Shown one piece after another: positions 1 to 60,368 of a stretch of DNA of 60,368 nt. Numbering within the stretch: position 1 is the stretch's first letter; every line of letters begins with the position of its first letter. The notes beneath the pieces were generated by a model. The model was not told where the DNA came from and made no database searches. It worked only from the letters and a program-made list of their open reading frames with translations. Source of the stretch: a virus; the IMG/VR virus record IMGVR_UViG_3300028840_001367, positions 1 to 60,368 of that record; one strand, given 5' to 3'. Made by a program: the position numbers and the translations under genes.

Positions 1-95
1 CACTTTTTGCCATAGAATTGCAGCACGATCCGTCTCTTGGTCTGCCAAGCATCTGAGTCAATGTACCTCTTGTACTCTGCCTTGTCCATTCTCAC
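1..95 (-). CDS. 5' fragment of HNH endonuclease gene (cut by window edge)
   Basis: These are the first ~30 codons of the HNH gene whose complete copy lies at 60092-60319. The gene runs off the left edge because the window was opened inside it. Its start (GTG at 95, or ATG at 89) overlaps the TGA stop of the parR-like gene, so the parM-parR operon continues into the HNH gene across the circle junction. Confidence 0.9.
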   Translation of the reverse strand, partial: MRMDKAEYKRYIDSDAWQTKRRIVLQFYGKK

Positions 96-144
96 CCCAA
101 CACATCGAGTGCTCTCTGAGCTTTTCTCACAAGCTCTTGGTCTG
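1..144. repeat. Left copy of 144-bp terminal direct repeat
   Basis: The bases are identical to 60225-60368, read base by base. The repeat contains the start of the HNH gene and the 3' end of the parR-like gene. It may be assembly overlap of a circular molecule or true terminal redundancy; sequence alone cannot decide. The unique genome length is 60,224 bp. Confidence 0.97.
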
Positions 145-436
145 CTGGCTCACCAATCTGAGTGTCAAAGGTTGAAAGCTCAGCAGCTTTGGTCTTGAGC
201 CTTGACAGTGCTCTCTCAATCTCAGCTTGACCGTCAAGCAGTAAGTCAAGACGCTCATTGAGACGCTCAACGTCAACGCTCTCACCATTGCCAGAGACAG
301 TGCCACCAGTCTTGAGCCAGTGCCTCAAGGCAAGCCTAAAAAGCTCTGACTTGTTGGCAGCACTCTCAAAGGCAGCAATAATGTCAGCGTCTTTGTCAGG
401 GTTGAGACTAAAAGGTCCAAGCACTACACGTGACAA
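92..436 (-). CDS. ParR-like ribbon-helix-helix DNA-binding protein
   Basis: Protein of 114 residues. Residues ~3-10 (VVLGPFSL) form a beta strand, followed by two helices (DADIIAAFESAA; KSELFRLALRHWL), the ribbon-helix-helix fold of ParR adaptors. The rest is a helical, charged region (~48-114) that could dimerise or contact the filament. The start is a TTG at 436 preceded by GAGGTGACCC, which also contains the stop of the upstream gene. It lies in the same minus-strand operon as the actin-like ATPase at 1299-2303. By analogy with type II partition, ParR binds a centromere and links DNA to ParM filaments. The three genes between parM and parR are unusual. It could instead be an operon autorepressor. 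Confidence 0.6.
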   Translation of the reverse strand: MSRVVLGPFSLNPDKDADIIAAFESAANKSELFRLALRHWLKTGGTVSGNGESVDVERLNERLDLLLDGQAEIERALSRLKTKAAELSTFDTQIGEPADQELVRKAQRALDVLG

Positions 437-439
437 GGG

Positions 440-769
440 TCACCTCACCAGATTGTATGCAGTGCCAGCAAGCTGAGGTATTGCATGAGGCATTGCAAAG
501 ATTGCAAGGCTGTTGGGTATGTCAAGGTGCACAAGGATATACCCACCACCAAGAGGCTCATTGCACTTGGCAATCAATGACTCTGCACTATGACCACGCA
601 CAAGCACAAAAGTTGGTGGTGGGTCTGCTTGCTGCTGGTCAACAAAAGACCAAGTGATCTTGTCACCATTCTCAAGAGCCTCATACAATAGCTCTGTGAC
701 CATTGGCACCCTCACTGACTCACCAAAGGGCACCTCAAGCTCAATGCAAGCAACTATCTTATTACCCAA
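440..769 (-). CDS. Hypothetical protein, paralogue of the upstream gene
   Basis: Protein of 109 residues from a TTG start at 769 with GAGAGGTGACCC as ribosome site. No family is recognised. It aligns by eye with the product of 773-1138: both have an early V-(T/K)-(E/D)-L helix, a central W-x-FVD motif followed by a Pro-rich turn, then GY-(I/K)-(L/I)V and a hydrophobic strand. The two neighbouring genes look like a tandem duplication. The junction GAGGTGACCCTTG (stop, ribosome site and TTG start overlapping) is repeated at 436. It may be an accessory factor of the segregation module. Confidence 0.7.
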   Translation of the reverse strand: MGNKIVACIELEVPFGESVRVPMVTELLYEALENGDKITWSFVDQQQADPPPTFVLVRGHSAESLIAKCNEPLGGGYILVHLDIPNSLAIFAMPHAIPQLAGTAYNLVR

Positions 770-772
770 GGG

Positions 773-1138
773 TCACCTCTCAACGCTCAATTGTATCTCA
801 TGCTTGGCAGCACTCAGAGCCAGCACCTCTGGCTTTGCCATGACTGCCAAGTACACGGTCAACTCATACTGCTCTGACCAGACACATGACATGGTGACAA
901 TCTTGTACCCTTGAGCCACCAGAGCACCAACCTTGGCCTTGTACTTGTCCTCATTGTTCTCATCCACAACCATGACAGCGTCTTTGGCAAGGTCTGCTGG
1001 TACCTCTGGCTCTGGATCGACAAAGCACCAGTCAAAGTTGACACCACAAGTCAAAAAAGCGTCTTGTATAAGGTCTTTGACATACTCTGCTCTGCCTTGG
1101 ACGTTGTCAAGTTCAATGATCACTTGTGCCTTGCTCAC
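773..1138 (-). CDS. Hypothetical protein, paralogue of the downstream gene
   Basis: Protein of about 121 residues. I prefer the GTG at 1138 (VSKAQVII), which has GTGAGG upstream; a GTG at 1150 is also open. Pattern: a beta-rich N terminus (QVIIELDN), a helix, WCFVDPEPEVP, an acidic loop (VVDENNEDKY), then GYKIVTMS and a hydrophobic strand. The W-x-FVD and GY-x-(I/L)V motifs are shared with the neighbour at 440-769. The function is unknown. It is translationally coupled to its neighbours in the parM-parR operon. Confidence 0.7.
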   Translation of the reverse strand: MSKAQVIIELDNVQGRAEYVKDLIQDAFLTCGVNFDWCFVDPEPEVPADLAKDAVMVVDENNEDKYKAKVGALVAQGYKIVTMSCVWSEQYELTVYLAVMAKPEVLALSAAKHEIQLSVER

Positions 1139-1146
1139 CTTGCACC

Positions 1147-1302
1147 TCACTCTCTGTTCTGCTTTCTGTCACACCTCAACCGTATACACCAACGCTCATA
1201 ATAAGGACGACATGAGCCACTATTGAGACTCTCAAGCCTTTGGTGCCAGTGAGACCATTTGTGCAAGCCAAGTCTACAAAGCCAGTGCTTTGCCTTGCTC
1301 AC
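1147..1302 (-). CDS. Small Cys/Trp-rich protein (51 aa)
   Basis: A short open frame from a GTG at 1302 that overlaps the parM stop (GTGA), ending with TGA at 1147-1149. The product carries KHWLCRLGLHKWSHW near its start and CxxxxYxxW and RC later. The C-x-x-G-x-HKW pattern recalls small prophage proteins of the DUF1660 type, but this is only a resemblance. Its start context (GCAAGGTGAGCAAGGCA) is almost identical to that of the next gene at 1138, supporting real translation and local duplication. Confidence 0.5.
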   Translation of the reverse strand: MSKAKHWLCRLGLHKWSHWHQRLESLNSGSCRPYYERWCIRLRCDRKQNRE

Positions 1303-2303
1303 CTTGCACCTCTCTCTGTTTTGTACTGAGTGTACTTGTAATACCCAAGAGCGTTGACGTATTCTGGCAGAGGCAGCACCTCAGCATGAGGTATGGCACT
1401 GGTCAAGTACTGCTCAAAGAGGTATGCACCACCACCAATGACAAAGACCCTGTCAAAGAGCCTTGCAGCAACACCCCAACGTTGAGCAGCAGTGTCAATG
1501 ATCTCCTCTGCAATGCTCTGCACAATAGGCTCAACAACTAGCTCAAGGTTGACAGATTGACCACCGTACATGATACGTCCAAGCGTGACTGCTTGCATGA
1601 TTCTATGGTCACTGTGTCTGTTAAGGTCAGGCAGATTGCTGGCAAAGTACTCTCTGACTGCTCTCATGACTTGCCAAGCACCACGCTCTGTGCTATAGCA
1701 CTCTGTGTCAACATTGGTCAAACCGTCAATGCTCAGCAAGTTGACATTGTGACCACCAACGTCAATCACTGCACACTTGCTGTCAACAAGGCTTGGGTCA
1801 ACCACGTTGCCAGACTTGTCAAGCAGACTGGTCAGAACAGCACCCCATGCTTGTGGCACAACATAGCATGTGTCAATGGTCAAGGTCTGCTGCCTGTGAC
1901 CGTCTCTCTTGAAAGTGTGCTCACCAGACAGCGTCTCATGCACAATCTCACGCTGCCTCTCAAAGTCCAACAGAGGCAAGCCAGTTGTGACACTCACGCT
2001 GGCATGACTTGCCTTGGTCAACTGACTCAGTGTGGCATAGAACAGAGAGCACCAGACTGGTGAGCCAATCCAGTCACTTGACTCTTTGCGCACTGTCTCA
2101 GCACCACGCTTGACAGCACCAGAGCCAACCAAGTGGTTGTGCTCACCATGCTCAATGACAATGTTATCCTCACCATTGAGCGTGAAACTTGAGCCAACGC
2201 GAGTGCTGACAAGAGACGGAAAAGTTACCCTCAACTCTCTGCCTTTGGCACTGGTGCCAATTGCCTTGACAGCGTAAAAGCCACAATCAAAACCCAATTG
2301 CAT
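1299..2303 (-). CDS. parM: ParM/StbA-like actin-fold ATPase
   Basis: Protein of 334 residues starting at MQLGFDCGF (2303). This ATG has AGAGGAGAG seven bases upstream; an upstream frame to 2363 lacks such a site. Actin-superfamily motifs are in order: phosphate 1, GFDCGFYAVKAIG (residues 4-16); phosphate 2, AVIDVGGHNVNLLSIDG (middle); adenosine motif, VFVIGGGAYLF (near the C terminus). Length matches plasmid ParM and the archaeal-type 'actin-like N-terminal' family. ParM polymerises with ATP and pushes plasmid copies apart when bound by ParR. A promoter lies at 2424-2453 and the repeat-rich 2304-2520 region just upstream could be the centromere. Another actin-like filament role, such as phage DNA positioning, is possible. 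Confidence 0.85.
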   Translation of the reverse strand: MQLGFDCGFYAVKAIGTSAKGRELRVTFPSLVSTRVGSSFTLNGEDNIVIEHGEHNHLVGSGAVKRGAETVRKESSDWIGSPVWCSLFYATLSQLTKASHASVSVTTGLPLLDFERQREIVHETLSGEHTFKRDGHRQQTLTIDTCYVVPQAWGAVLTSLLDKSGNVVDPSLVDSKCAVIDVGGHNVNLLSIDGLTNVDTECYSTERGAWQVMRAVREYFASNLPDLNRHSDHRIMQAVTLGRIMYGGQSVNLELVVEPIVQSIAEEIIDTAAQRWGVAARLFDRVFVIGGGAYLFEQYLTSAIPHAEVLPLPEYVNALGYYKYTQYKTERGAR

Positions 2304-2423
2304 GACACTCTCCTCTGCTGCTCTTGGCAGTCTGCTGACTGACTGGTTGACCAGTACTGTCAAGCTCTGACAAGTCTCTCTGTCAACCCTTGACTGCCAG
2401 TCAGTCAGTCAAGTTATACTCAG

Positions 2424-2453
2424 ATTATACCATCACCAACATGTTGGCGTCAA
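2424..2453 (-). promoter_or_regulatory. parM operon promoter with embedded palindrome
   Basis: Minus strand: -35 TTGACG (2453-2448), 18-bp spacer, -10 TATAAT (2429-2424). The spacer contains the perfect palindrome CCAACATGTTGG (2436-2447), placed so that a bound protein would block polymerase. It is a good operator candidate for autoregulation by the ParR-like protein. Confidence 0.7.
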
Positions 2454-2458
2454 TAGCT

Positions 2459-2483
2459 CAACCTTAACCATTGCAACACTTGT
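2459..2483 (-). repeat. Bipartite motif copy R1
   Basis: Minus-strand reading: AAGTGTTGCA, three bases, GTTAAGGTT. A 25-bp stretch is identical to 12741-12765, and related copies lie at 7631-7653 and 49981-50003. It ends six bases before the -35 of the parM promoter. Confidence 0.8.
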
Positions 2484-2573
2484 CAACCAATCTCAACCAA
2501 TCTCACCAGTCACAATCTGCCAGATGCTATGTATCATACTGTACCATTGGCTCACAATCCTATTGTGCCAGAC

Positions 2574-2602
2574 TTGACAGCACTTGACTCTTGCGTTATA
2601 AT
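2574..2602 (+). promoter_or_regulatory. Early promoter P1
   Basis: TTGACA (2574-2579), 17-bp spacer, TATAAT (2597-2602). The spacer carries ACTTGACTCTTG, the pattern shared by the early promoters. It drives the frame at 2659 and the Toprim gene at 3008. Confidence 0.8.
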
Positions 2603-3007: not shown

Positions 3008-4552
3008 ATGTACTCAGTCACTTGGCAGCACCACTTGGACAGTTTTGCAAAAGCCTTGCTCAATGAGCTTGGCGTTGACCCTCAGTACTTGCCCACAGAC
3101 CACAACCCCATAACAGACGCACTGCTTGACCCCAACTTTGTTGAGACATACCAGCACCTCAAAGGCTTTTCAAGAGCAGCAATGAGCAGAGTTGCCACAA
3201 TCTGCCAGATGGCTGTTTTTGACGCTCAGAATGGTCCAGAGGGTGACGGTCAACCAAAAGCACTCAGACGACACTGGTACGCTTGGTACAAGGGCACCTT
3301 TGCTCAGAGGATTGCACCACAGCTTGGTGACGTGACACCCAATGACTCTGGTATGCCAGAGATGGATGATCGCATCTGGTCACAGCGTCTCTCAATCACA
3401 TACGGTGCCTTGGTTGACACTGGCACCGTCACATACCAAGACTTGTGGGTCTCAGATGCCTCACGTATGATTGAGGAGTATTATCGTTCTCTTTTCTCTG
3501 GTTGCAATGTGATTGTCTGTGTTGAAAAAGACAGCCTCTTTGCAGACTTCACTGGTGCTGCCAAGCGTCTTGGTGCACGTGCAGTGTACTCTGGCAAGGG
3601 CAAGAGCAGCAAAGCAGCAATTGAAAAGCTGCTCAGAGAGGTGTTTTACTGGTCAGACTCTCACGATCCATTCTCATATCACAACCCTCTGATTGTGCTG
3701 CACGTGAGTGACCATGACTTTGACGGTCACAAGGTCATTGGGCCAACCTTTGGTGAGCAGTGCAGACGGTACACCTCACACGTGGTTGAGGCACGCATTG
3801 GTGTTAAGCCTCAGCAAGTGCGTGAGCTTGCTGGTTGGGGTGACCATAGCTGGTACAAGATCAAACTCAACAACGCAGGGTACAAGACATGGGCCAATGA
3901 GCACGCTTTGTTTCTGGCAGAGTGCTCTGACTGTGGGCACCAGTACCCGGTACTCTCAGCAGACCGTCACCACTTTGACAACCTTTGTCCAGAGTGCTTT
4001 GCCAAAATGAACACCATTGAACTTGGCAAAGACACTGCCTTTGGCTTTGAAGTTGAGGCACTCAAGACACACCAGTACTCAGCAATGTTTGTTGACGCTC
4101 TGCTTGAGTGCATACCCTTTGACACCATTGTGTCAAACTTGAGGCAAGAGGTACAAGCACATGCACCAACAGCAATCTCACCCATTGCCAATGAGGTGCT
4201 CAGCAACAATGAGTCATACCAAGAGTTGCTGGCAGAGCTTGCCAAGTTTGACAAGCTGGTTGCAATGCGTGAGCGTTTTGAGCAGCGAGTTGAGCAAGCC
4301 TTGACCAAAGTTGCCACACCTCACCAGCTTGACTGGCAAGACAAAGAGCCAGACCCAACAGTGCAGCAATTCAGAGACCATGTTGCCAACCCACATGCAT
4401 ACAACCCTTGGCAACCATTCTCTGAGACTTGGCAGACTCAGCAGTTGACTGGTTGGGTGCGCGAGAACAAAGGCAACGTTGTTGAGGCACTTGAGAGAGT
4501 CACGGTCACCAAGCTCACTGGCTTGAGCGTTGAGGATGACTCTGAGGAGTAA
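3008..4552 (+). CDS. TopoVI-A/Spo11-like Toprim protein with zinc finger
   Basis: Protein of 514 residues, start after CAGGGAGAAAAACA. Residues ~87-150 resemble the catalytic winged-helix of topoisomerase VI subunit A/Spo11: RRHWYAWYK (candidate catalytic Tyr91 or Tyr94), then RLSITYGALVDTGTVTYQDL. Residues ~167-245 match a Toprim domain: VIVCVEKDSLF (Glu173), VYSGKGKSSKAAIEKLLRE, and VSDHDFDG (Asp235, Asp237, Asp239). FEVEAL (~347-352) resembles the later FE/VEL-x-AL motif of the family. Inserted Cys306/309 and Cys327/330 form a likely zinc ribbon. Family members cleave or remodel double-stranded DNA; Wadjet JetD nucleases share the fold. No TopoVI-B (GHKL) partner is visible. As the first large early gene it may act in replication, recombination or host DNA attack. 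The fold call is moderately secure; the activity is inferred. Confidence 0.65.
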   Translation: MYSVTWQHHLDSFAKALLNELGVDPQYLPTDHNPITDALLDPNFVETYQHLKGFSRAAMSRVATICQMAVFDAQNGPEGDGQPKALRRHWYAWYKGTFAQRIAPQLGDVTPNDSGMPEMDDRIWSQRLSITYGALVDTGTVTYQDLWVSDASRMIEEYYRSLFSGCNVIVCVEKDSLFADFTGAAKRLGARAVYSGKGKSSKAAIEKLLREVFYWSDSHDPFSYHNPLIVLHVSDHDFDGHKVIGPTFGEQCRRYTSHVVEARIGVKPQQVRELAGWGDHSWYKIKLNNAGYKTWANEHALFLAECSDCGHQYPVLSADRHHFDNLCPECFAKMNTIELGKDTAFGFEVEALKTHQYSAMFVDALLECIPFDTIVSNLRQEVQAHAPTAISPIANEVLSNNESYQELLAELAKFDKLVAMRERFEQRVEQALTKVATPHQLDWQDKEPDPTVQQFRDHVANPHAYNPWQPFSETWQTQQLTGWVRENKGNVVEALERVTVTKLTGLSVEDDSEE

Positions 4553-17124: not shown

Positions 17125-17153
17125 TTGACATCACTTGTCACTTGTGGTATAAT
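17125..17153 (+). promoter_or_regulatory. Early promoter P5
   Basis: TTGACA (17125-17130), 17-bp spacer TCACTTGTCACTTGTGG, TATAAT (17148-17153): near-consensus, with a TG one base before the -10. Best example of the conserved-spacer family, with the direct repeat CACTTGT. Confidence 0.85.
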
Positions 17154-24165: not shown

Positions 24166-24194
24166 TTGACACAAGTTGGCTCTTGCGCTATAAT
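24166..24194 (+). promoter_or_regulatory. Early promoter P6
   Basis: TTGACA (24166-24171), 17-bp spacer with GTTGGCTCTTGCGC, TATAAT (24189-24194). It drives the SWIM protein at 24258. Confidence 0.8.
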
Positions 24195-24773: not shown

Positions 24774-24802
24774 TTGACAGCAGTTGTCACTTGTGCTATA
24801 AT
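24774..24802 (+). promoter_or_regulatory. Early promoter P7
   Basis: TTGACA (24774-24779), 17-bp spacer with GTTGTCACTTGTGC, TATAAT (24797-24802). A second TTGACAATTGGTTGTCAA palindrome (24750-24767) sits just upstream, an operator candidate. Confidence 0.8.
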
Positions 24803-26174: not shown

Positions 26175-26411
26175 TCAGAGAGGCACTGAGTCACCCTTTG
26201 TTGAGTCAAGCAGCACGGTGCTTTTAATGAACGTCATGACCCACTTGAGAGGCACACCATTCTCACCAGTCTCACTCACATACGTGCCTCTGTGCTGGTA
26301 CCCATGCTGCTGGTATGCCACAATGTGAGTTGTTTGCTCCTCAATCGTGGTGATTGTGACATGTCTGGTGGTCACCTCAAGCTTGTATGCTCTCTCAAGA
26401 GACGCACTCAT
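26175..26411 (-). CDS. Hypothetical protein (78 aa), end of late operon
   Basis: ATG 26411 overlaps the stop of the preceding exported protein (ATGA). Beta-rich small protein (YKLEVTTRHVTITTIEEQTTHIVAYQQHG; KWVMTFIKSTVLLDS). No motif for lysis or binding recognised. It is the last late gene. Confidence 0.65.
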   Translation of the reverse strand: MSASLERAYKLEVTTRHVTITTIEEQTTHIVAYQQHGYQHRGTYVSETGENGVPLKWVMTFIKSTVLLDSTKGDSVPL

Positions 26412-27286
26412 GGTGCTGCCTCAAGCAACAGAAACTCACCAGCCAGTATGAGTGCCTCACCAAGACTCTTGACAATGCGCTTGTGAGTCTCAGTTGCAAT
26501 CTGGTCAACCAAGTCTGGTGGCAGAGGTGTCACGGTTGGCACTGGTGTTGGTGTGGTTGGGTCTGGTGTTGGTGTGACGGTTGGTGTGCTGGTTGGGTTT
26601 GGTGTGGGTGTTGGCTCTGGCTCACCCTCTTGCACCAAGGATAGATCGTCAACATATGCGTTGTTGTGTTTCATGGGCCATTCTGCTTGACCCCACACAA
26701 AGACGGTTGCACGGTCAGAGCGTGCAATTGTGCTCACTGTAAGCTCAAAGTACTGGTCATAGGGTTGCACCGTCTCAGACCAGACAATGTCAAGGCTTTC
26801 AGGGTCAGTACCACCATAGGGGTCAATGCCAACCCTCAGACGGTACTTGCCATCACTGACCCTTGGGTTGTCGTGACTGGCAGACCACGCTTGCACCCAA
26901 CCATTGAGCGTGAGTTGTCTGCCAACAGAGAGACCGTCAACCCTCTGCCAGATACCAGCAGTGTGTGTTGCATAGTTGTTGAACCATTGATGAGCCTTGG
27001 TGCCTGAGTGTATACGGTGCCTGTCAATAGCATACTCTGCAATCTTGTACTCTGGTCTGGTGTCAGTCTCATGCCACCAAGCACGCCAGTACTTTGCCAC
27101 AAAGAGTTGTGGCACACCGTCTTGGTAGTACCCACCAAGCTCAGCACCACCGTTGACCAGCAAGTTGTTGGTTGGCAGTGCCTCTGCTGTGTGCATGTTG
27201 TTGCTGAGGGTGACAGAGCCAGCAACAATGGCAGCAATGCACCCCACTATGATCAAGGTGAGTGTGAGTTGTGCTCTCTTGCTCAT
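26408..27286 (-). CDS. Exported jelly-roll (CBM-like) protein with PT linker
   Basis: Protein of 292 residues, start 27286. N-terminal signal anchor (LTLTLIIVGCIAAIVAGSVTL, ~7-27). Residues ~40-225 read as a beta-sandwich carbohydrate-binding-type domain: NLLVNGGAELGGYYQDG, HQWFNNYATHTAGIWQRVDGL, LTLNGWVQAWS and NAYVDDLSLV. A Pro/Thr linker follows (TPTPNPTSTPTVTPTPDPT, ~232-262), then a C-terminal amphipathic helix (DLVDQIATETHKRIVKSLGEALIL). The PT linker and this domain style are frequent in Chloroflexota secreted proteins. It could be a cell-surface binding or lysis-related protein; no catalytic domain is seen. Adjacent to the holin-like gene. Confidence 0.75.
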   Translation of the reverse strand: MSKRAQLTLTLIIVGCIAAIVAGSVTLSNNMHTAEALPTNNLLVNGGAELGGYYQDGVPQLFVAKYWRAWWHETDTRPEYKIAEYAIDRHRIHSGTKAHQWFNNYATHTAGIWQRVDGLSVGRQLTLNGWVQAWSASHDNPRVSDGKYRLRVGIDPYGGTDPESLDIVWSETVQPYDQYFELTVSTIARSDRATVFVWGQAEWPMKHNNAYVDDLSLVQEGEPEPTPTPNPTSTPTVTPTPDPTTPTPVPTVTPLPPDLVDQIATETHKRIVKSLGEALILAGEFLLLEAAP

Positions 27287-27642: not shown

Positions 27643-28290
27643 TCATTGTATGAGTGTGACAAACTTTGCAAACAAGTCAGCAAGTTGCTGAGCGTCTGCA
27701 CCAAGTACAACCAAAAACAACACAACTGAGGCAACACCAGTCACCTTGAGCCAGTTGTGATACGCTTTCATTTTAGCACTGTATTCTGTGAGCTTGGCAC
27801 TGTACTCTGTCATTTTAGTGCTGCACTCTGCCATGACCGTCTGCACGTGCTCAAGCTCAGTCTTGACTTTTGCAAGCTCTGCCTTGAGACTCTCAATGAG
27901 ACGGTCTTTGAGTATCTGTCTGCCATAACGGTTGAGGATTGCTTGCACTGCTGCTGCTGGCACTGGCTTTGGCACAACGTTGTCTGCACCTCTGACCAGC
28001 ATGGCAATCTCAATCTCTCTGGTGACGTACCCTGAGATTATGCAGCAAGGTCCATGTCTCTGGTTGAGCCAACTGTCAAGCACAATGCTGCCAGCATCCT
28101 CTTGAGCACCAAAGTGCAAGTCAAGCAAGAGTATGTCTGGTTGGTCAGACTCAATGGCTTTGATTGCAGCACTCACGCTTGAGGCAGTGTCAGTGTCAAA
28201 GCCAAGACTGGTGGCAATTCTGGCAAGCAGCGTGGCAATGATTGGCTCATCGTCTGCAATAAGTACTTTGATCTGTTGGGATTGAAACAA
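27643..28290 (-). CDS. Membrane-anchored CheY-like receiver protein
   Basis: Protein of 215 residues from a TTG at 28290 (GTGAGGTGTTCTC upstream). Residues 7-125 are a complete response-regulator receiver domain: acidic pair Asp13-Asp14 (LIADDEP), phospho-acceptor Asp57 (ILLLDLHF), Ser86 (CIISGY) and Lys108 (VVPKPV). All key residues are present. There is no DNA-binding output. Instead a coiled coil follows (~125-178; LKAELAKVKTELEHVQ and three TEYSAK(L/M)-type repeats), then a transmembrane helix (~182-198; VTGVASVVLFLVVLGA) and a short tail. A membrane-tethered receiver in a phage late operon, beside a holin-like gene, is unusual. It might sense host phosphorylation to time lysis, or be a conversion protein. 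Confidence 0.85.
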   Translation of the reverse strand: MFQSQQIKVLIADDEPIIATLLARIATSLGFDTDTASSVSAAIKAIESDQPDILLLDLHFGAQEDAGSIVLDSWLNQRHGPCCIISGYVTREIEIAMLVRGADNVVPKPVPAAAVQAILNRYGRQILKDRLIESLKAELAKVKTELEHVQTVMAECSTKMTEYSAKLTEYSAKMKAYHNWLKVTGVASVVLFLVVLGADAQQLADLFAKFVTLIQ

Positions 28291-41791: not shown

Positions 41792-42673
41792 TCAACTCGC
41801 TTGGCTTGTCTGGTATGTGTCCCAAAGGTGCTGCCAGAAAGTGTCTGGTGCCTCTGCCAGAGCGTCTTGCCAATCCTCAAGTGTCTGCCAACCATAGGAC
41901 AGTGAGCCAACGTTGTCATTGTAGACTGGCGTGCACCCTGACAAGATACCCTCTGCTGACACTCTGCCAAAAGGCTCAAGGTCTGCTGGCATAAACACCA
42001 GAGCACCAGCTTGACGTGACAAGAAAGCTGGCACCGTCTCTGGCTTGAGGGTACCCATGTCTCTGAGGTACAAGTACTCACTCAAGTCACCCCAACCATA
42101 ACAGTCAATCTTGACGCTGTGCTCTTTTGCCCAAGCATCCATGTCTGCCAGACCCTTGTGAGCACCAAACTCACCCAAGTACACAAAGACATCATCTGGT
42201 GAGCACTCTTTGTCAAAATGCTCAAGGCAACTGTACTTGTCAAGGTCAAAGGCTGGTGGGCACACCAGAGCCTCTGGCAGCGTGGTCTGCCAAGCTGACT
42301 CAAAGCCAGTCTTGTGCAGAGGTGACAAAAAGACGTGACTGGCAGCCTGCTCAATGAGCCTCTTGTACACCCTGGTCTGCCAACGCTCAGTGTGCTGCCA
42401 AAAGTCATGAGCGTATATGACAAAGGGTACGTCTGTGAGCTTGCCAAGTTGGGGTGCACTGAATTGCCTGACATTGTTGAGCACCACAAGCACTTGCTCT
42501 GGTATGATCTTGACGTGGTCAAGGTTGTCAGGGTACACCTCAAGCACGTTGCACCAATCTGGTGCTCTCTCAATCATGAGGGTGTTTGTCATCTGTGCAC
42601 CACCAAGACGGTCACTCAATCTGTGGTCATGTGCCCAAACAACTGTGATCTTGTCACTGCCTGTCTCAAGCAT
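41792..42673 (-). CDS. Glycosyltransferase, GT4-like
   Basis: Protein of 293 residues. The N-terminal half is Rossmann-like (VVWAHDHRLSDRLGGAQMTN; VPFVIYAHDFWQHT; HVFLSPLHKTGFES). The second domain has VFVYLGEFGAHKGLADMD (~165-183) and ALVFMPADLEPFGRVSAEGILSGCTPVYN (~232-260), the E-x7-E-like donor-binding region of GT4/GT-B enzymes (EPFGRVSAE). It probably transfers a sugar to cell-surface glycans or a virion protein. Last of four transferase genes. Confidence 0.85.
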   Translation of the reverse strand: MLETGSDKITVVWAHDHRLSDRLGGAQMTNTLMIERAPDWCNVLEVYPDNLDHVKIIPEQVLVVLNNVRQFSAPQLGKLTDVPFVIYAHDFWQHTERWQTRVYKRLIEQAASHVFLSPLHKTGFESAWQTTLPEALVCPPAFDLDKYSCLEHFDKECSPDDVFVYLGEFGAHKGLADMDAWAKEHSVKIDCYGWGDLSEYLYLRDMGTLKPETVPAFLSRQAGALVFMPADLEPFGRVSAEGILSGCTPVYNDNVGSLSYGWQTLEDWQDALAEAPDTFWQHLWDTYQTSQAS

Positions 42674-43616
42674 TGGTATGCTCTCCTCTCAAAAGCTCAA
42701 AGGCTCTGCCAATCACTGCAATGTGTGTATACTGCTCAAGTGCTAGATTGTGACCACGTCTGGCAACAGTCTCTCTCAACTCATTGTTGACAAGCCAAAA
42801 GCGCACTTGCTCAACCAAGTGTGCAAAGTCAAGCCAAGCAACTGCTGTACCTTGTGGCATAAGGTCATAAAAGCCAGCAAAGTACTCTGCCAGATAGAAT
42901 GCACCACACCCAAGAGCGTACACCATACGGTCTGAGCTATAGTGTGCAACTTGGTTGGTTGCACACATGCCAATCACAATCTTGCACTGTGAGTAAAACT
43001 CAGCAAGGTCTGACCCATAACAGCCAGACTGCACAATCTGCATTGTGCTGCCAAGATAGTCTTGCAGTCTCAAGAGCACCTCAGTGCGTCTCTTGTGCAA
43101 AGGATGGCTCATGCCACCAACAAAGCCAACGTCAACGGTCTTGGGTATGTCCAGAGGGTGCAACACGTCTGGCACATAGAATTGAGGCAGAAAGTATGCA
43201 GAGGGTATCTGGTATGCAAGCTGGTACTCACTGAGTTGTGCAGTGTTGACCAAAAAGAGCACGTCAATCAGACCGTGCACGCTCTCAGGGTTGATCACTG
43301 GTCTCTTGATGGGCCAATCAGAGTCAACACCCTCTGGTGCTCTCAAGTCAACAAAGTGGTACACCACGGTCTCTGGCTTGGGGTGACGTTGACAGTACCA
43401 TGTCAAAAACACAAGACCCTCTTTGGCTCTGACCCACCACAGAGAGGCACCAAAGTCTGCAAGCTCTGCCTCTGTCTGCTCAAAAGACCAGTCTGCTGCT
43501 CTCACGTCGATTGGCAGACAAGGGTGCCCAAAGTGCTCAAAGGCTCTCAGCAGACCATCATACTCTCTGCCAGCAGTCACAGTGCCAAGGTCACCAAAGA
43601 GTGCAATCCTGGTCAT
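42666..43616 (-). CDS. CgeB-like glycosyltransferase
   Basis: Protein of 316 residues. Start MTRIALFGDLGTVTAGREYDGLL; a GT-B architecture with VDVGFVGGMSHPLHKRRTEVLLRLQ (~160-185), KIVIGMCATNQVAHYSSDRMVYALGCGAFYLAEYFAGF and the C-terminal VNNELRETVARRGHNLALEQYTH. The last part is the signature of spore-maturation CgeB/'glycosyltransferase family 1 (GT1_2)' proteins. It overlaps both neighbours by four to eight bases, so the block is a tight operon. Confidence 0.85.
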   Translation of the reverse strand: MTRIALFGDLGTVTAGREYDGLLRAFEHFGHPCLPIDVRAADWSFEQTEAELADFGASLWWVRAKEGLVFLTWYCQRHPKPETVVYHFVDLRAPEGVDSDWPIKRPVINPESVHGLIDVLFLVNTAQLSEYQLAYQIPSAYFLPQFYVPDVLHPLDIPKTVDVGFVGGMSHPLHKRRTEVLLRLQDYLGSTMQIVQSGCYGSDLAEFYSQCKIVIGMCATNQVAHYSSDRMVYALGCGAFYLAEYFAGFYDLMPQGTAVAWLDFAHLVEQVRFWLVNNELRETVARRGHNLALEQYTHIAVIGRAFELLRGEHTNA

Positions 43617-44344
43617 AGCAGTGTCTCAGAGTGCAACCAAGCAGTGCCATACTTGTCAGTGAGCAACTCTCTGGCTTTGGCCTTGTACCTCTCAAGGTCA
43701 ATCTTGAGCAGCTTGGTGGTCTGCTTGTGCAAGTGCCTGACAAGTACACCAGTGTGCACTGCCAGCTTGAGACCGTGCTGCCTGAGTCTCATGCAATAGT
43801 CATCATCTTCACCATAGACAAAAAAGTCCTCACAGAGATTGCCAACCACGTCAACCACGTCTGCTGGCAACAGCACACAAGTCATTGGCACCATTGGCAG
43901 ACCGTGCAAGGCAACGTCAATCACCTCAAGCTGGCGGTATTGGTCCCAACGCTGCCAGTACACAGACTGGTCTGGTGCTGTGGTCAGAGCAGAGACAATG
44001 CCAACTTGATCGTCTGCCTCAAGAGCGTCAACCAGCATGGTGAGCCAGTCAGGGTGAGTGATCTGGCAGTCATTGTTGAGCAGCAAGATATACTCACCCT
44101 CACAGAGCGTGAGAGCGTGGTTGACTGCCTTGGCAAAACCTTGGTTATACTCATGTAGTACCAATTTGACTGTTGCAGTGCTGGCGTCAAGCCTCTCAAG
44201 GTACTGCACTGCCAGACGGTCACTTGAGCCATTGTCAACAATGACCAACTCATATGGTGCCTCAGTGTACTTGGCAATGCTGTCAACCAAGTCTCTGGTC
44301 AACTGCCAAGTCTCATGTTGTAGGATGACAATACTTGTCAGCAT
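43613..44344 (-). CDS. Glycosyltransferase family 2
   Basis: Protein of 243 residues. Classical GT-A motifs: TSIVILQHETWQLTRDLVDSI, YELVIVDNGSSD (~33-44), NQGFAKAVNHAL, EYILLLNNDCQI (DxD-equivalent NND at ~92-95) and DFFVYGEDDDYCMRLRQHG (the ED-D motif, ~175-190). It adds sugars from nucleotide donors. Rhamnosyltransferase-like order. Confidence 0.92.
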   Translation of the reverse strand: MLTSIVILQHETWQLTRDLVDSIAKYTEAPYELVIVDNGSSDRLAVQYLERLDASTATVKLVLHEYNQGFAKAVNHALTLCEGEYILLLNNDCQITHPDWLTMLVDALEADDQVGIVSALTTAPDQSVYWQRWDQYRQLEVIDVALHGLPMVPMTCVLLPADVVDVVGNLCEDFFVYGEDDDYCMRLRQHGLKLAVHTGVLVRHLHKQTTKLLKIDLERYKAKARELLTDKYGTAWLHSETLL

Positions 44345-45510
44345 AGCTCTGCCTCAATCTTTGTGAGTAGTGGCAACCAATCACGCTGCCAGATGACAGA
44401 CCAGTCAAAGTGATTGCGTATAATGTTGGTGGCAGTTTGTGCCAAGCACTCTGCTGTCTCACTGTGTCTGGCATCATACTCTTGCTCAATGGCAGCAACA
44501 AAGCCAGAGACGCTTGGCACTGCATACCAGCCCATGAGCTTGCCCCACACCATCTGGTCATAGGGCACACACTGACCATTGTACACAAGCTCTGGCATAC
44601 TTGAGACCCTGGTTGCCAGTACTGGCAGACCACACGCTTGAGCCTCAGTGACTGGCACACCAAAACCCTCACCACGTGTTGGCATGAGCAGCAAGTCACT
44701 GGCAGAGTATATCTTTGCCATGTGCTCAGCACTGTACCCTTGCTCATGCTGTGCACGGTCTGCCAGTATCACCCTTGACTCAATGCCAAGGGTCTTGGCA
44801 ATGGTGCTCAAGCTCACTCCTCTGGTAAATTCATGGTCACAGTGACAGTACAAGTACAAGTCTGGTATATTGTCTCTGTGCAGCAGAGTGTTGAGTATCT
44901 GCATTGCCTCTGGGTACCCTTTTCTGCTGGGCCAAGAGACGTTGCTTGAGACCATCGTCATGACAAAAGCGTCTTGCTGCCAACCAAGCTGAGCACGTGA
45001 CTCTTGCTTGCCTTGTGGCACAAAGACGCTTGTGTCAACACCAATGGGTATGTGTCTGGCTTGCAGACCCTCAGCAACCAACTGCTGCTGACCCCATCTT
45101 GAGTATGAGACCAGTATGTCAGTCTGCTTTGCCATGCGTATCACACGGTCACTTGGTGGTGTGTGGTCAATTGGCAACCAGTTGAGCCAAGGCATTGCCA
45201 GTGCCTCTGCATAGTCGTCTGGCACATGCCAGTTGTCGTGCATACCCAAGACAAGGTGAGCACCAAAGTCTTGTGCATACGCTCTGACCGTCTCACCACG
45301 CCAACGCAAGGTGTCATCATGGGGTGTTGGGTACCACGTCACACCACCAACATTGAGCTTTGCACCCTCAAGGCCAAAGTTGGCATAACCAGCAACAGCA
45401 AAACCAGACTCTTGCAGCAACTCGCTCAAGTGCTTTGCCATGATGCCATACCCACTATTGCACCATGCCATGTTGCTGACAAGCAGTACTCTCAACTCTC
45501 TCTCAGGCAT
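44338..45510 (-). CDS. Glycosyltransferase family 4 (GT-B)
   Basis: Protein of 390 residues, ATG 45510 after GAGAGGAGAGCATACC. Domains: acceptor half LLVSNMAWCNSGYGIMAKHLSELL and GMHDNWHVPDD; donor half IPIGVDTSVFVPQGK, VSSNVSWPSRKGYPEAMQIL, DLLLMPTRGEGFGVPVTEAQACGLPVLATRVSSMPEL (~270-310), where RGEGFGVPVTEA is the E-x7-E motif. First gene of the transferase block after element D. Confidence 0.93.
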   Translation of the reverse strand: MPERELRVLLVSNMAWCNSGYGIMAKHLSELLQESGFAVAGYANFGLEGAKLNVGGVTWYPTPHDDTLRWRGETVRAYAQDFGAHLVLGMHDNWHVPDDYAEALAMPWLNWLPIDHTPPSDRVIRMAKQTDILVSYSRWGQQQLVAEGLQARHIPIGVDTSVFVPQGKQESRAQLGWQQDAFVMTMVSSNVSWPSRKGYPEAMQILNTLLHRDNIPDLYLYCHCDHEFTRGVSLSTIAKTLGIESRVILADRAQHEQGYSAEHMAKIYSASDLLLMPTRGEGFGVPVTEAQACGLPVLATRVSSMPELVYNGQCVPYDQMVWGKLMGWYAVPSVSGFVAAIEQEYDARHSETAECLAQTATNIIRNHFDWSVIWQRDWLPLLTKIEAELC

Positions 45511-50376: not shown

Positions 50377-50406
50377 ATTATAGCACTGTTGACAAGTTGT
50401 TGTCAA
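50377..50406 (-). promoter_or_regulatory. Late promoter PL2
   Basis: Minus strand: TTGACA (50406-50401), 18-bp spacer, TATAAT (50382-50377). The -35 starts a palindrome TTGACAACAACTTGTCAA, an operator candidate. It would drive 50355 and downstream capsid genes. Confidence 0.75.
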
Positions 50407-56436: not shown

Positions 56437-56466
56437 ATTATACTCTGCTTTGACACCTTGTGTCAA
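56437..56466 (-). promoter_or_regulatory. Late promoter PL1
   Basis: Minus strand: TTGACA (56466-56461), 18-bp spacer, TATAAT (56442-56437). The -35 begins TTGACACAAGGTGTCAA, a palindrome. It starts the methylase-terminase-head-tail operon, immediately after a terminator. The leader to 56350 holds further TTGACA/TGTCA repeats. Confidence 0.8.
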
Positions 56467-57777: not shown

Positions 57778-57971
57778 ATGCTCACCTCACTGCTCTCTCT
57801 CACCAGTCTCAGCACCTCTCTGCCAAACTTGACCAGACGTGCACCACGTGTGCCACCAGGGACATTGCCAGCAAAGCGTGCTCTGTACTTGTCGCGACCC
57901 TCACCAGCCAGAGCAGACAGCACTGCATTGCTCACCTCTTGTGCAGTGTAAAAACGGTTGACGCTCAACAT
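57774..57971 (-). CDS. Small protein overlapping FtsK end (or its C terminus)
   Basis: A 65-residue frame starting at ATG 57971 (weak ribosome site), product MLSVNRFYTAQEVSNAVLSALAGEG then a basic part (YRARFAGNVPGGTRGARLVKFGREVLRLV). It overlaps the last 71 bases of the FtsK-like gene in another frame, a longer overlap than other junctions here. The FtsK frame over this stretch (VERQPFLHCTRGEQCSAVC) looks less natural. A frameshift near the GTTTTTA run, natural or an error, could make this the true C-terminal domain of FtsK. Confidence 0.55.
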   Translation of the reverse strand: MLSVNRFYTAQEVSNAVLSALAGEGRDKYRARFAGNVPGGTRGARLVKFGREVLRLVRESSEVSI

Positions 57972-59001
57972 ACAAGGCTTGCATGTCTGTGCCTGTCACC
58001 AGGGTGCCTTGCACCCTCTCACCTTGGCAATAGCAGTCACCAGCACCAGTGAGCTTGTCTGCTCTTGGGTGCTCTGACCCCACAACCACTTGGCTTGCAG
58101 CAAAGTCTGTCACTTGCAGAGCCAGTCTGCCTCTCAAGTTGCGCTTGGTCTGTGGGTCACCCATGACAGAGTTGACAGGGTGCTGAGTTGCCAGCACCAA
58201 GTGCACGCTTGCTGCTCTGCCAAGGCTTGCAATCTTGCGTATTGCCTCAGCAACAAACTTGTCAGAGGCAAACTCTTGGAACTCATCAAAGACCACCACC
58301 AGTCTCTTGGCAGTGCTCTCTGAGACGCTCTCTCTGCTGACAAGCTCATACCTCTCTTGCATTTTACTCAGCACATAGCTCAGAGCACCTCTGGCAGCGT
58401 CAACGTTGGTGGCACACTGACCAAGCACACAAGGCAGTGCCTCAAGCCTCTTGAGACTCTCACCCTCTTTGCCATCAATGAGTACCAAAATGCAATCGTC
58501 TGCCCTTACAAGCTGGTATATTAAATTATGCAATGCAACTGACTTGCCAGAGCCAGAGGTACCACCAACCAGCCAGTGAGGTGTTGAGTCATCGAGTGCA
58601 CCCACCACGGTTGCACCATACTCATTGAGACCCACAACCCAATGACCATTGCCCAATGGCTTTTGACACACACTTGTCAACTTGACAACCCTCTCTTGCA
58701 AGTCCAAGGGCCAACCAGCCTCAAGCCTCACATACCACTTGCTCAAGCTGACACTGAGCGTCTTGTCATCAAAGTCAAAAGGCAGCAATTGCCTCAGCAG
58801 AGCAGCATTGTCTTTGCTCAATGCCTTGAGCACCTCACCAGTCAAGCTGCCAGCACTCACCAAAGCAACTGCTGCTCTTGGGCCAGACACAACTTGCACG
58901 CTTGGCACAAAAGACTGCTTGCTCAGCAGACCCAACTTGCCAGCTTGCACAATGCGTCTGGTCAACTCACTCAGATACTTTTTCCTTGTCTCTTGGCTCA
59001 T
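57901..59001 (-). CDS. FtsK/SpoIIIE-like DNA translocase
   Basis: Protein of 366 residues, start ATG 59001. Motor domain: Walker A HWLVGGTSGSGKSVALHNLIYQL (~143-165), ILVLIDGKEGESLKRLEALP, Walker B KRLVVVFDEFQEF (~233-244), LGRAASVHLVLATQHPVNSVMGDPQTKRNLRGRLALQVTDFAASQVVVG (~260-307) and GAGDCYC. This is the FtsK/TraB-type pattern of ATPases that pump double-stranded DNA. The N-terminal ~130 residues have no membrane anchor. In a phage-plasmid it might help segregation, dimer resolution or DNA transfer. A partner recombinase (XerCD-like) is not visible. Confidence 0.85.
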   Translation of the reverse strand: MSQETRKKYLSELTRRIVQAGKLGLLSKQSFVPSVQVVSGPRAAVALVSAGSLTGEVLKALSKDNAALLRQLLPFDFDDKTLSVSLSKWYVRLEAGWPLDLQERVVKLTSVCQKPLGNGHWVVGLNEYGATVVGALDDSTPHWLVGGTSGSGKSVALHNLIYQLVRADDCILVLIDGKEGESLKRLEALPCVLGQCATNVDAARGALSYVLSKMQERYELVSRESVSESTAKRLVVVFDEFQEFASDKFVAEAIRKIASLGRAASVHLVLATQHPVNSVMGDPQTKRNLRGRLALQVTDFAASQVVVGSEHPRADKLTGAGDCYCQGERVQGTLVTGTDMQALYVERQPFLHCTRGEQCSAVCSGW

Positions 59002-60091: not shown

Positions 60092-60319
60092 TCACCCTCT
60101 GTTGTGTGCTGCCTTATGGCAAGCTGGACAAAGCACCGTCAAGTCAACAATGTGCTCTCTGCCAACCCTCTCATATGACAAGTGGTGCACGTGCAGTACT
60201 TTCTTTGGCTTGCCACACTCTCTGCACTTTTTGCCATAGAATTGCAGCACGATCCGTCTCTTGGTCTGCCAAGCATCTGAGTCAATGTACCTCTTGTACT
60301 CTGCCTTGTCCATTCTCAC
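60092..60319 (-). CDS. HNH endonuclease
   Basis: Protein of 75 residues (GTG 60319, or ATG 60313 after GGGGTGAGA). CRECGKP (~32-38) and CPACHKAAH (~63-71) are the zinc cysteines; LHVHHLSYERVGREHIVDL contains the catalytic H-H and the N/D position. Small HNH proteins near terminase genes nick DNA during packaging in HK97-like phages, but this copy is over 5 kb from TerL and follows parR across the circle junction. The gene overlaps the parR-like stop. Confidence 0.9.
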   Translation of the reverse strand: MRMDKAEYKRYIDSDAWQTKRRIVLQFYGKKCRECGKPKKVLHVHHLSYERVGREHIVDLTVLCPACHKAAHNRG

Positions 60320-60368
60320 CCCAACACATCGAGTGCTCTCTGAGCTTTTCTCACAAGCTCTTGGTCTG
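60225..60368. repeat. Right copy of 144-bp terminal direct repeat
   Basis: Identical to 1-144. It contains the HNH start and the last 53 bases (60316-60368) of the parR-like gene, whose full copy is at 92-436. Confidence 0.97.

Follow-up and report, generated by a model that had tools for sequence, protein, structure and literature searches.

An actin-like ATPase gene near the left end of a siphovirus-like phage genome raises the question of whether it heads a DNA segregation cassette and, if so, whether the phage uses that cassette to inherit a circular, non-integrated prophage or to position its DNA during lytic growth. The window (the whole stretch of DNA analysed, 60,368 bases) is the IMG/VR virus record IMGVR_UViG_3300028840_001367. 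As its ends are a 144-bp direct terminal repeat (1–144 identical to 60225–60368) the unit genome comes to about 60,224 bases. A first-pass annotation had described the sequence as closing into a circle; the repeat fits a circular or circularly permuted genome, but by itself it does not indicate a plasmid. The tailed-phage genes found are siphovirus-like (terminase small and large subunits, portal, capsid, decoration protein, tail terminator, tail tube, tape measure and Dit) and include the structural and packaging functions looked for in a phage-plasmid. This is a complete tailed-phage genome, previously unsampled. Between about 2.7 and 26.1 kb the genes point rightward, everywhere else leftward, which places the divergence point at 2.3–2.7 kb, immediately upstream of the actin gene.

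ParM-like actin and the genes downstream

The product of 1299–2303(−) (334 aa, ATG start) is, as judged by sequence comparison, a member of the ParM superfamily. It matches PHROG_691 ‘partition protein’ (E = 5e-42), the Pfam families ALP_N (1.5e-18) and MreB-like_C (8.5e-17) and, among solved structures searched with phmmer, pCBH ParM (3.7e-13), another ParM structure and CorM (5.5e-8). A profile built from six sequences matches ParM structures including 3js6, Alp12 and R1 ParM, and MreB only at 6e-5. The nucleotide motifs claimed in the first-pass annotation are also present (D6-x-G8…K13, phosphate-2 IDVGGHNVN and GG at 290–291), with NVN in place of TTD in phosphate-2. A comparison with PhuZ had been suggested as a way of refuting the assignment; since PhuZ belongs to the tubulins it has no bearing on an actin, and the comparison was dropped. 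The closest identities among the relatives found are about 25%, and in a maximum-likelihood tree the protein lies deep among phage and plasmid ParMs, where its placement is poorly fixed and the nearest rows by path are phage ParMs.

Downstream of parM the leftward run continues with a 51-aa ORF rich in Cys, Trp and His (1147–1302, overlapping the parM stop, no Pfam match), orfA (773–1138, 121 aa), orfB (440–769, 109 aa), a candidate adaptor gene (92–436) and, across the circular join, an HNH endonuclease gene (60092–60313), all on the minus strand. With gaps of −4, 8, 3, 3 and 2 bases in that order, a single transcript from parM to the HNH gene is very likely. An FtsK/SpoIIIE-like ATPase gene (57901–59001(−); PF01580 7.9e-24, PHROG_1358 3.3e-42) lies further down the same run.

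The 92–436 product (114 aa, TTG start) is a credible ribbon-helix-helix (RHH) adaptor of the ParR type, a reading we accept mainly on the strength of an independent profile. For it we took the small gene immediately 3′ of parM at each of nine other loci (the Moorella, Eldridge, Bbo-125, API480, Alicyclobacillus, f2b1, Troll and AGATE phages and one Aromatoleum plasmid; the Moorella phage has one gene between parM and the adaptor-type gene) and trimmed each sequence by hand to its putative RHH part. With this profile 92–436 ranks first among 1,092 six-frame ORFs (E = 3.7e-4 for 1,095 sequences, next best 1.3) and scores above all of 5,000 shuffles, and the untrimmed first version of the profile gave the same rank at E = 0.006. 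The stretch aligned is PFSLNPDKDADIIAAFESAANKSELFRLALRHWLK. The standard Pfam RHH_1 model gave a sub-threshold match (E = 0.079). The predicted structure has an extended N-terminus and two helices followed by a long helix; the AlphaFold model (pLDDT 68) was too weak for a fold to be assigned and a structure search with this low-confidence model returned nothing. An RHH protein in the parM operon, as first proposed, is thus retained: it lies 3′ of parM on the same strand, with no gap above 8 bp and predicted co-transcription, and three genes stand between the two.

Those three small genes had been noticed at the outset and were found as described. That two of them are paralogues held up less firmly: the Smith–Waterman score of orfA against orfB is 47 against 25.9 ± 4.5 for shuffled sequences (z about 4.7, 27% identity), but the similarity is weak and BLASTP finds nothing, and on this alignment they are probably distant paralogues. 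Neither has an assigned function or a relative in any library searched, and their AlphaFold models (pLDDT 52) were too weak for fold assignment; they may be partners of the adaptor or passengers. The first-pass suggestion that the intervening genes may be new parMRC components stays conjectural, as searches brought up no homologue of them. orfB and the RHH gene have in common the start context GAGGTGACCC-TTG. Separately, through a 37-base duplication (1127–1163 and 1291–1327, 86% identical) the 51-aa ORF and orfA begin alike, both in their start context and in their first residues, VSKA.

The leader array and the dispersed palindromes

The par operon has a near-perfect sigma70 promoter (2424–2453(−), TTGACG-18-TATAAT with a TG extension), the spacer of which holds a perfect palindrome, CCAACATGTTGG (2436–2447), found once in the genome. 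Between its −10 box and the parM start lies an array of inverted repeats (2321–2420) that is a candidate parC-like centromere and operator on the basis of its repeat content and position. It contains 27 pairs of inverted 6-mers, where the genome averages 2.9 (sd 2.6), and ranks first of about 6,000 windows; none of 1,000 dinucleotide shuffles reached this count, and with the GTCA tandem collapsed the array is still in the top 0.15%. The upstream region had been called repeat-rich, which is true of its inverted repeats, the densest in the genome, but not of direct repeats, which in 2304–2702 do not exceed the genome background, so that a parC of direct iterons was rejected. The parC of R1 is of the direct-iteron type. 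In several of the relatives repeats peak within about 230 bp upstream of parM, though these are often direct. Folding of the leader RNA was unremarkable (z = −0.95) and Rfam gave no match.

A second kind of repeat is scattered over the genome. The 18-bp palindrome TTGACA-N6-TGTCAA occurs in 15 exact copies (at 4119, 10787, 17089, 24144, 24750, 25545, 31009, 37175, 41330, 43389, 50389, 51600, 56370, 58663 and 59053), where an order-4 Markov model predicts 0.07 and 40 simulations gave at most one. Some copies overlap −35 boxes, and five of the seven strongest promoters have an exact palindrome or its N5 form at their position or a short way upstream. Three copies (25545, 41330 and 51600) are identical and frame a Shine–Dalgarno-like GAGG just ahead of a start codon; overall a start codon follows closely in 6 of the 15 as against 24% of random places, which is no clear excess. 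By their sequence and placement the palindromes look like operators or stoperators of a phage-wide regulator. Six sigma70 promoters match the consensus at 12 of 12 positions, namely 17125–17153(+), 24166–24194(+), 24774–24802(+), 2574–2602(+), which is the divergent promoter of the rightward operon, 56437–56466(−) and 50377–50406(−), and these sequences suggest that the host housekeeping RNA polymerase is used. The two promoters facing each other over the par intergenic region have degenerate palindromes only, and there is no exact copy at the par promoter.

The array could instead be a site of this global regulator and not a centromere, an explanation that concerns the array only and fits either use of the filaments. 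It would account for the half-sites TTGAC/GTCAA that the array has in common with the dispersed palindrome and for 2347–2363, which is one mismatch from the N5 form, but the array word TGACTGAC is rare elsewhere (three of its nine genomic copies lie within the array) and the arms are unlike the palindrome consensus; we regard it as unlikely, at about one chance in four. It is a speculation to which we give little credence that the RHH protein, besides serving as the partition adaptor, is also the master regulator of the prophage, with the leader array and the 15 palindromes as its sites; if so, one protein would couple the silencing of lytic genes with actin-driven segregation.

Plasmid prophage or lytic growth

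The type II partition anatomy first proposed for this locus, with a ParM gene, an RHH gene and an upstream array, is supported; plasmids and certain phages move their DNA within the cell by means of such cassettes. On the reading that we favour, with a confidence only just beyond even, the siphovirus-like phage has here a DNA segregation cassette of type II (actin), used most probably for the inheritance of a circular, non-integrated prophage. The RHH protein would bind the inverted repeats at 2321–2420, load phage DNA onto the filaments that ParM is presumed to form and probably repress its own promoter; the filaments would push or pair circular phage genomes, and stable inheritance of the putative circular prophage would be the most likely outcome. 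Plasmid use of the cassette, taken alone, we put at about one half.

The first-pass annotation had seen no integrase or transposase, and sensitive six-frame profile searches agree: no tyrosine recombinase (PF00589), serine recombinase (PF00239) or rve transposase was found, while control genomes gave matches. Absence of an integrase is usual, not universal, for phage-plasmids. A Rep_3 initiator was not found in the window, hmmscan of the larger genes gave no Rep family, and neither a CI-like repressor nor an Xer-type resolvase was identified in the window; that no Rep_3 initiator, repressor or resolvase was found counts against the plasmid-prophage reading.

The nearest parallels are two Bacillus plasmid prophages with a ParM-like protein and an RHH adaptor, IEBH, a 53-kb siphovirus without recombinases, as in the window, and vB_BtS_B83 (B83), which also has a putative centromere; both are siphoviruses of about 50–60 kb (PMC8026635, PMC6669507). 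Unlike the window, B83 carries its adaptor gene next to parM and also encodes Xer recombinases and a RepA-like initiator, and the ParM described here is only about 25% identical to that of any relative found. The plasmid systems of pCBH, pSK41 and R1 ParM resemble the locus in actin family and operon logic but belong to plasmids and have ParR directly after ParM. Cluster A mycobacteriophages combine dispersed repressor sites with a partition locus in place of an integrase, an arrangement that the window may share, although their ParA is of type I, their sites are asymmetric and their repressor is known. In lysogens of the stoperator-bearing Cluster A phages, expression is confined to the repressor together with either integrase or parABS (PMC6550527). 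Were the palindrome a repressor site, par expression would continue in the prophage like that of parABS in these lysogens. The 15 operator-like palindromes and the lack of an exact copy at the par promoter are clues that favour a temperate life.

The main competitor, to which we give about a one-in-three standing, is that the same parts serve lytic growth, with filaments carrying or positioning replicating phage DNA (at the membrane or cell centre), so that the phage need not be a plasmid at all. ParM relatives occur in 48 phage records, mostly from Bacillus phages of SPO1-like and Bastille-like type, which are regarded as lytic, and in several ParM-bearing phages the next gene 3′ of parM is small and RHH-like. 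In C. glutamicum prophage CGP3 the AlpAC system transports DNA during lytic replication, being induced early and required for efficient replication (PMC4446434), and SPO1-like cassettes may act likewise. CGP3 resembles the window in having a phage actin (AlpC), a DNA-binding adaptor (AlpA) and repeats (alpS) near the operon promoter, but its adaptor gene is upstream of the actin gene, the prophage is integrated and the role is in lytic replication (PMC4446434). The cassette described here heads an early-looking leftward run with the FtsK-like ATPase and a methyltransferase, and a 4-kb stretch of Bacillus phage Troll likewise combines parM with a small RHH-like gene and a gene for an FtsK-like protein. 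The cassettes of SPO1 (gp27.9) and the Bastillevirinae also have a PHROG_691-type ParM followed directly by a small gene, RHH-like in the latter; unlike the window, these are large phages with weak or direct arrays and no intervening genes. Lytic use sits less well with the genome-wide operator-like palindromes, which suggest a repressed prophage state, and with the array itself, since SPO1 and the Moorella phage have no clear array upstream of parM. Against the plasmid-prophage reading, the adaptor of the relatives directly follows parM, whereas three genes intervene in the window; the searches also turned up no relative of this phage whose prophage state is known. The weakness of the RHH call in standard libraries and the empty structure search count against it too. 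According to PMC8026635, the presence of a partition locus ‘does not necessarily indicate’ that there is a plasmid stage. The candidate phage-plasmid of the first-pass annotation is plausible, with the par cassette and the lack of recombinases on its side, but the phage-plasmid step is unproven because such cassettes also occur in phages thought to be exclusively lytic.

It is improbable that the actin is the remnant of a partition system or serves some other purpose (cell shape, host take-over), with the RHH protein only autoregulating the operon and nothing being segregated. In favour of this, the adaptor gene is not next to parM, phosphate-2 deviates from TTD and a match is made at 5e-8 to the ParM relative CorM, which we take to have a non-plasmid role (a literature search on such a role found nothing); against it, the motifs keep their spacing, the reading frame is open and the array of repeats occupies the place of a centromere.

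The favoured reading, inheritance of a plasmid prophage, and lytic DNA positioning can now be set against each other at defined DNA sites, a question that applies to all ParM-carrying phages. With this locus, a siphovirus-like phage without a close sampled relative joins those that have an actin-type segregation cassette, and its cassette is very far from those already known.

Relatives, host and other genes

No close relative of the phage was found in phage or viral collections, in scans of viral contigs with ParM, the helicase, FtsK, the RHH gene and orfA as queries, or in a scan of viral contigs for the exact Shine–Dalgarno-framing palindrome. TerL matched 12 viral contigs, none of which has a PHROG_691 match, but most are fragments; a weak actin match on one TerL-related genome contig (L040) proved to be MreB. 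The host could not be named because the TerL relatives are spread across many phyla. At 51% GC the dinucleotide bias is strong (CpG 0.28 and TpA 0.38 of expectation, CpA/TpG 1.77), and several tetramers, among them CTTC, GCCG and CCGC, are almost missing from the window. In the rightward arm, 3008–4552(+) encodes a 514-aa protein with a DHDFDG motif and, downstream of it, a four-cysteine zinc-ribbon-like stretch, which by eye is TOPRIM/topoisomerase-like; it gave no family match. Three glycosyltransferase genes lie amid the structural genes at 42666–45510(−). Near the end of the leftward run, 27643–28290(−) encodes a protein that joins a response-regulator receiver domain to a coiled coil and ends in a hydrophobic segment. 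The product of 26408–27286(−) looks secreted and has a TPTP-rich linker; linkers in this style are common in Chloroflexota, which is a weak hint at the host.
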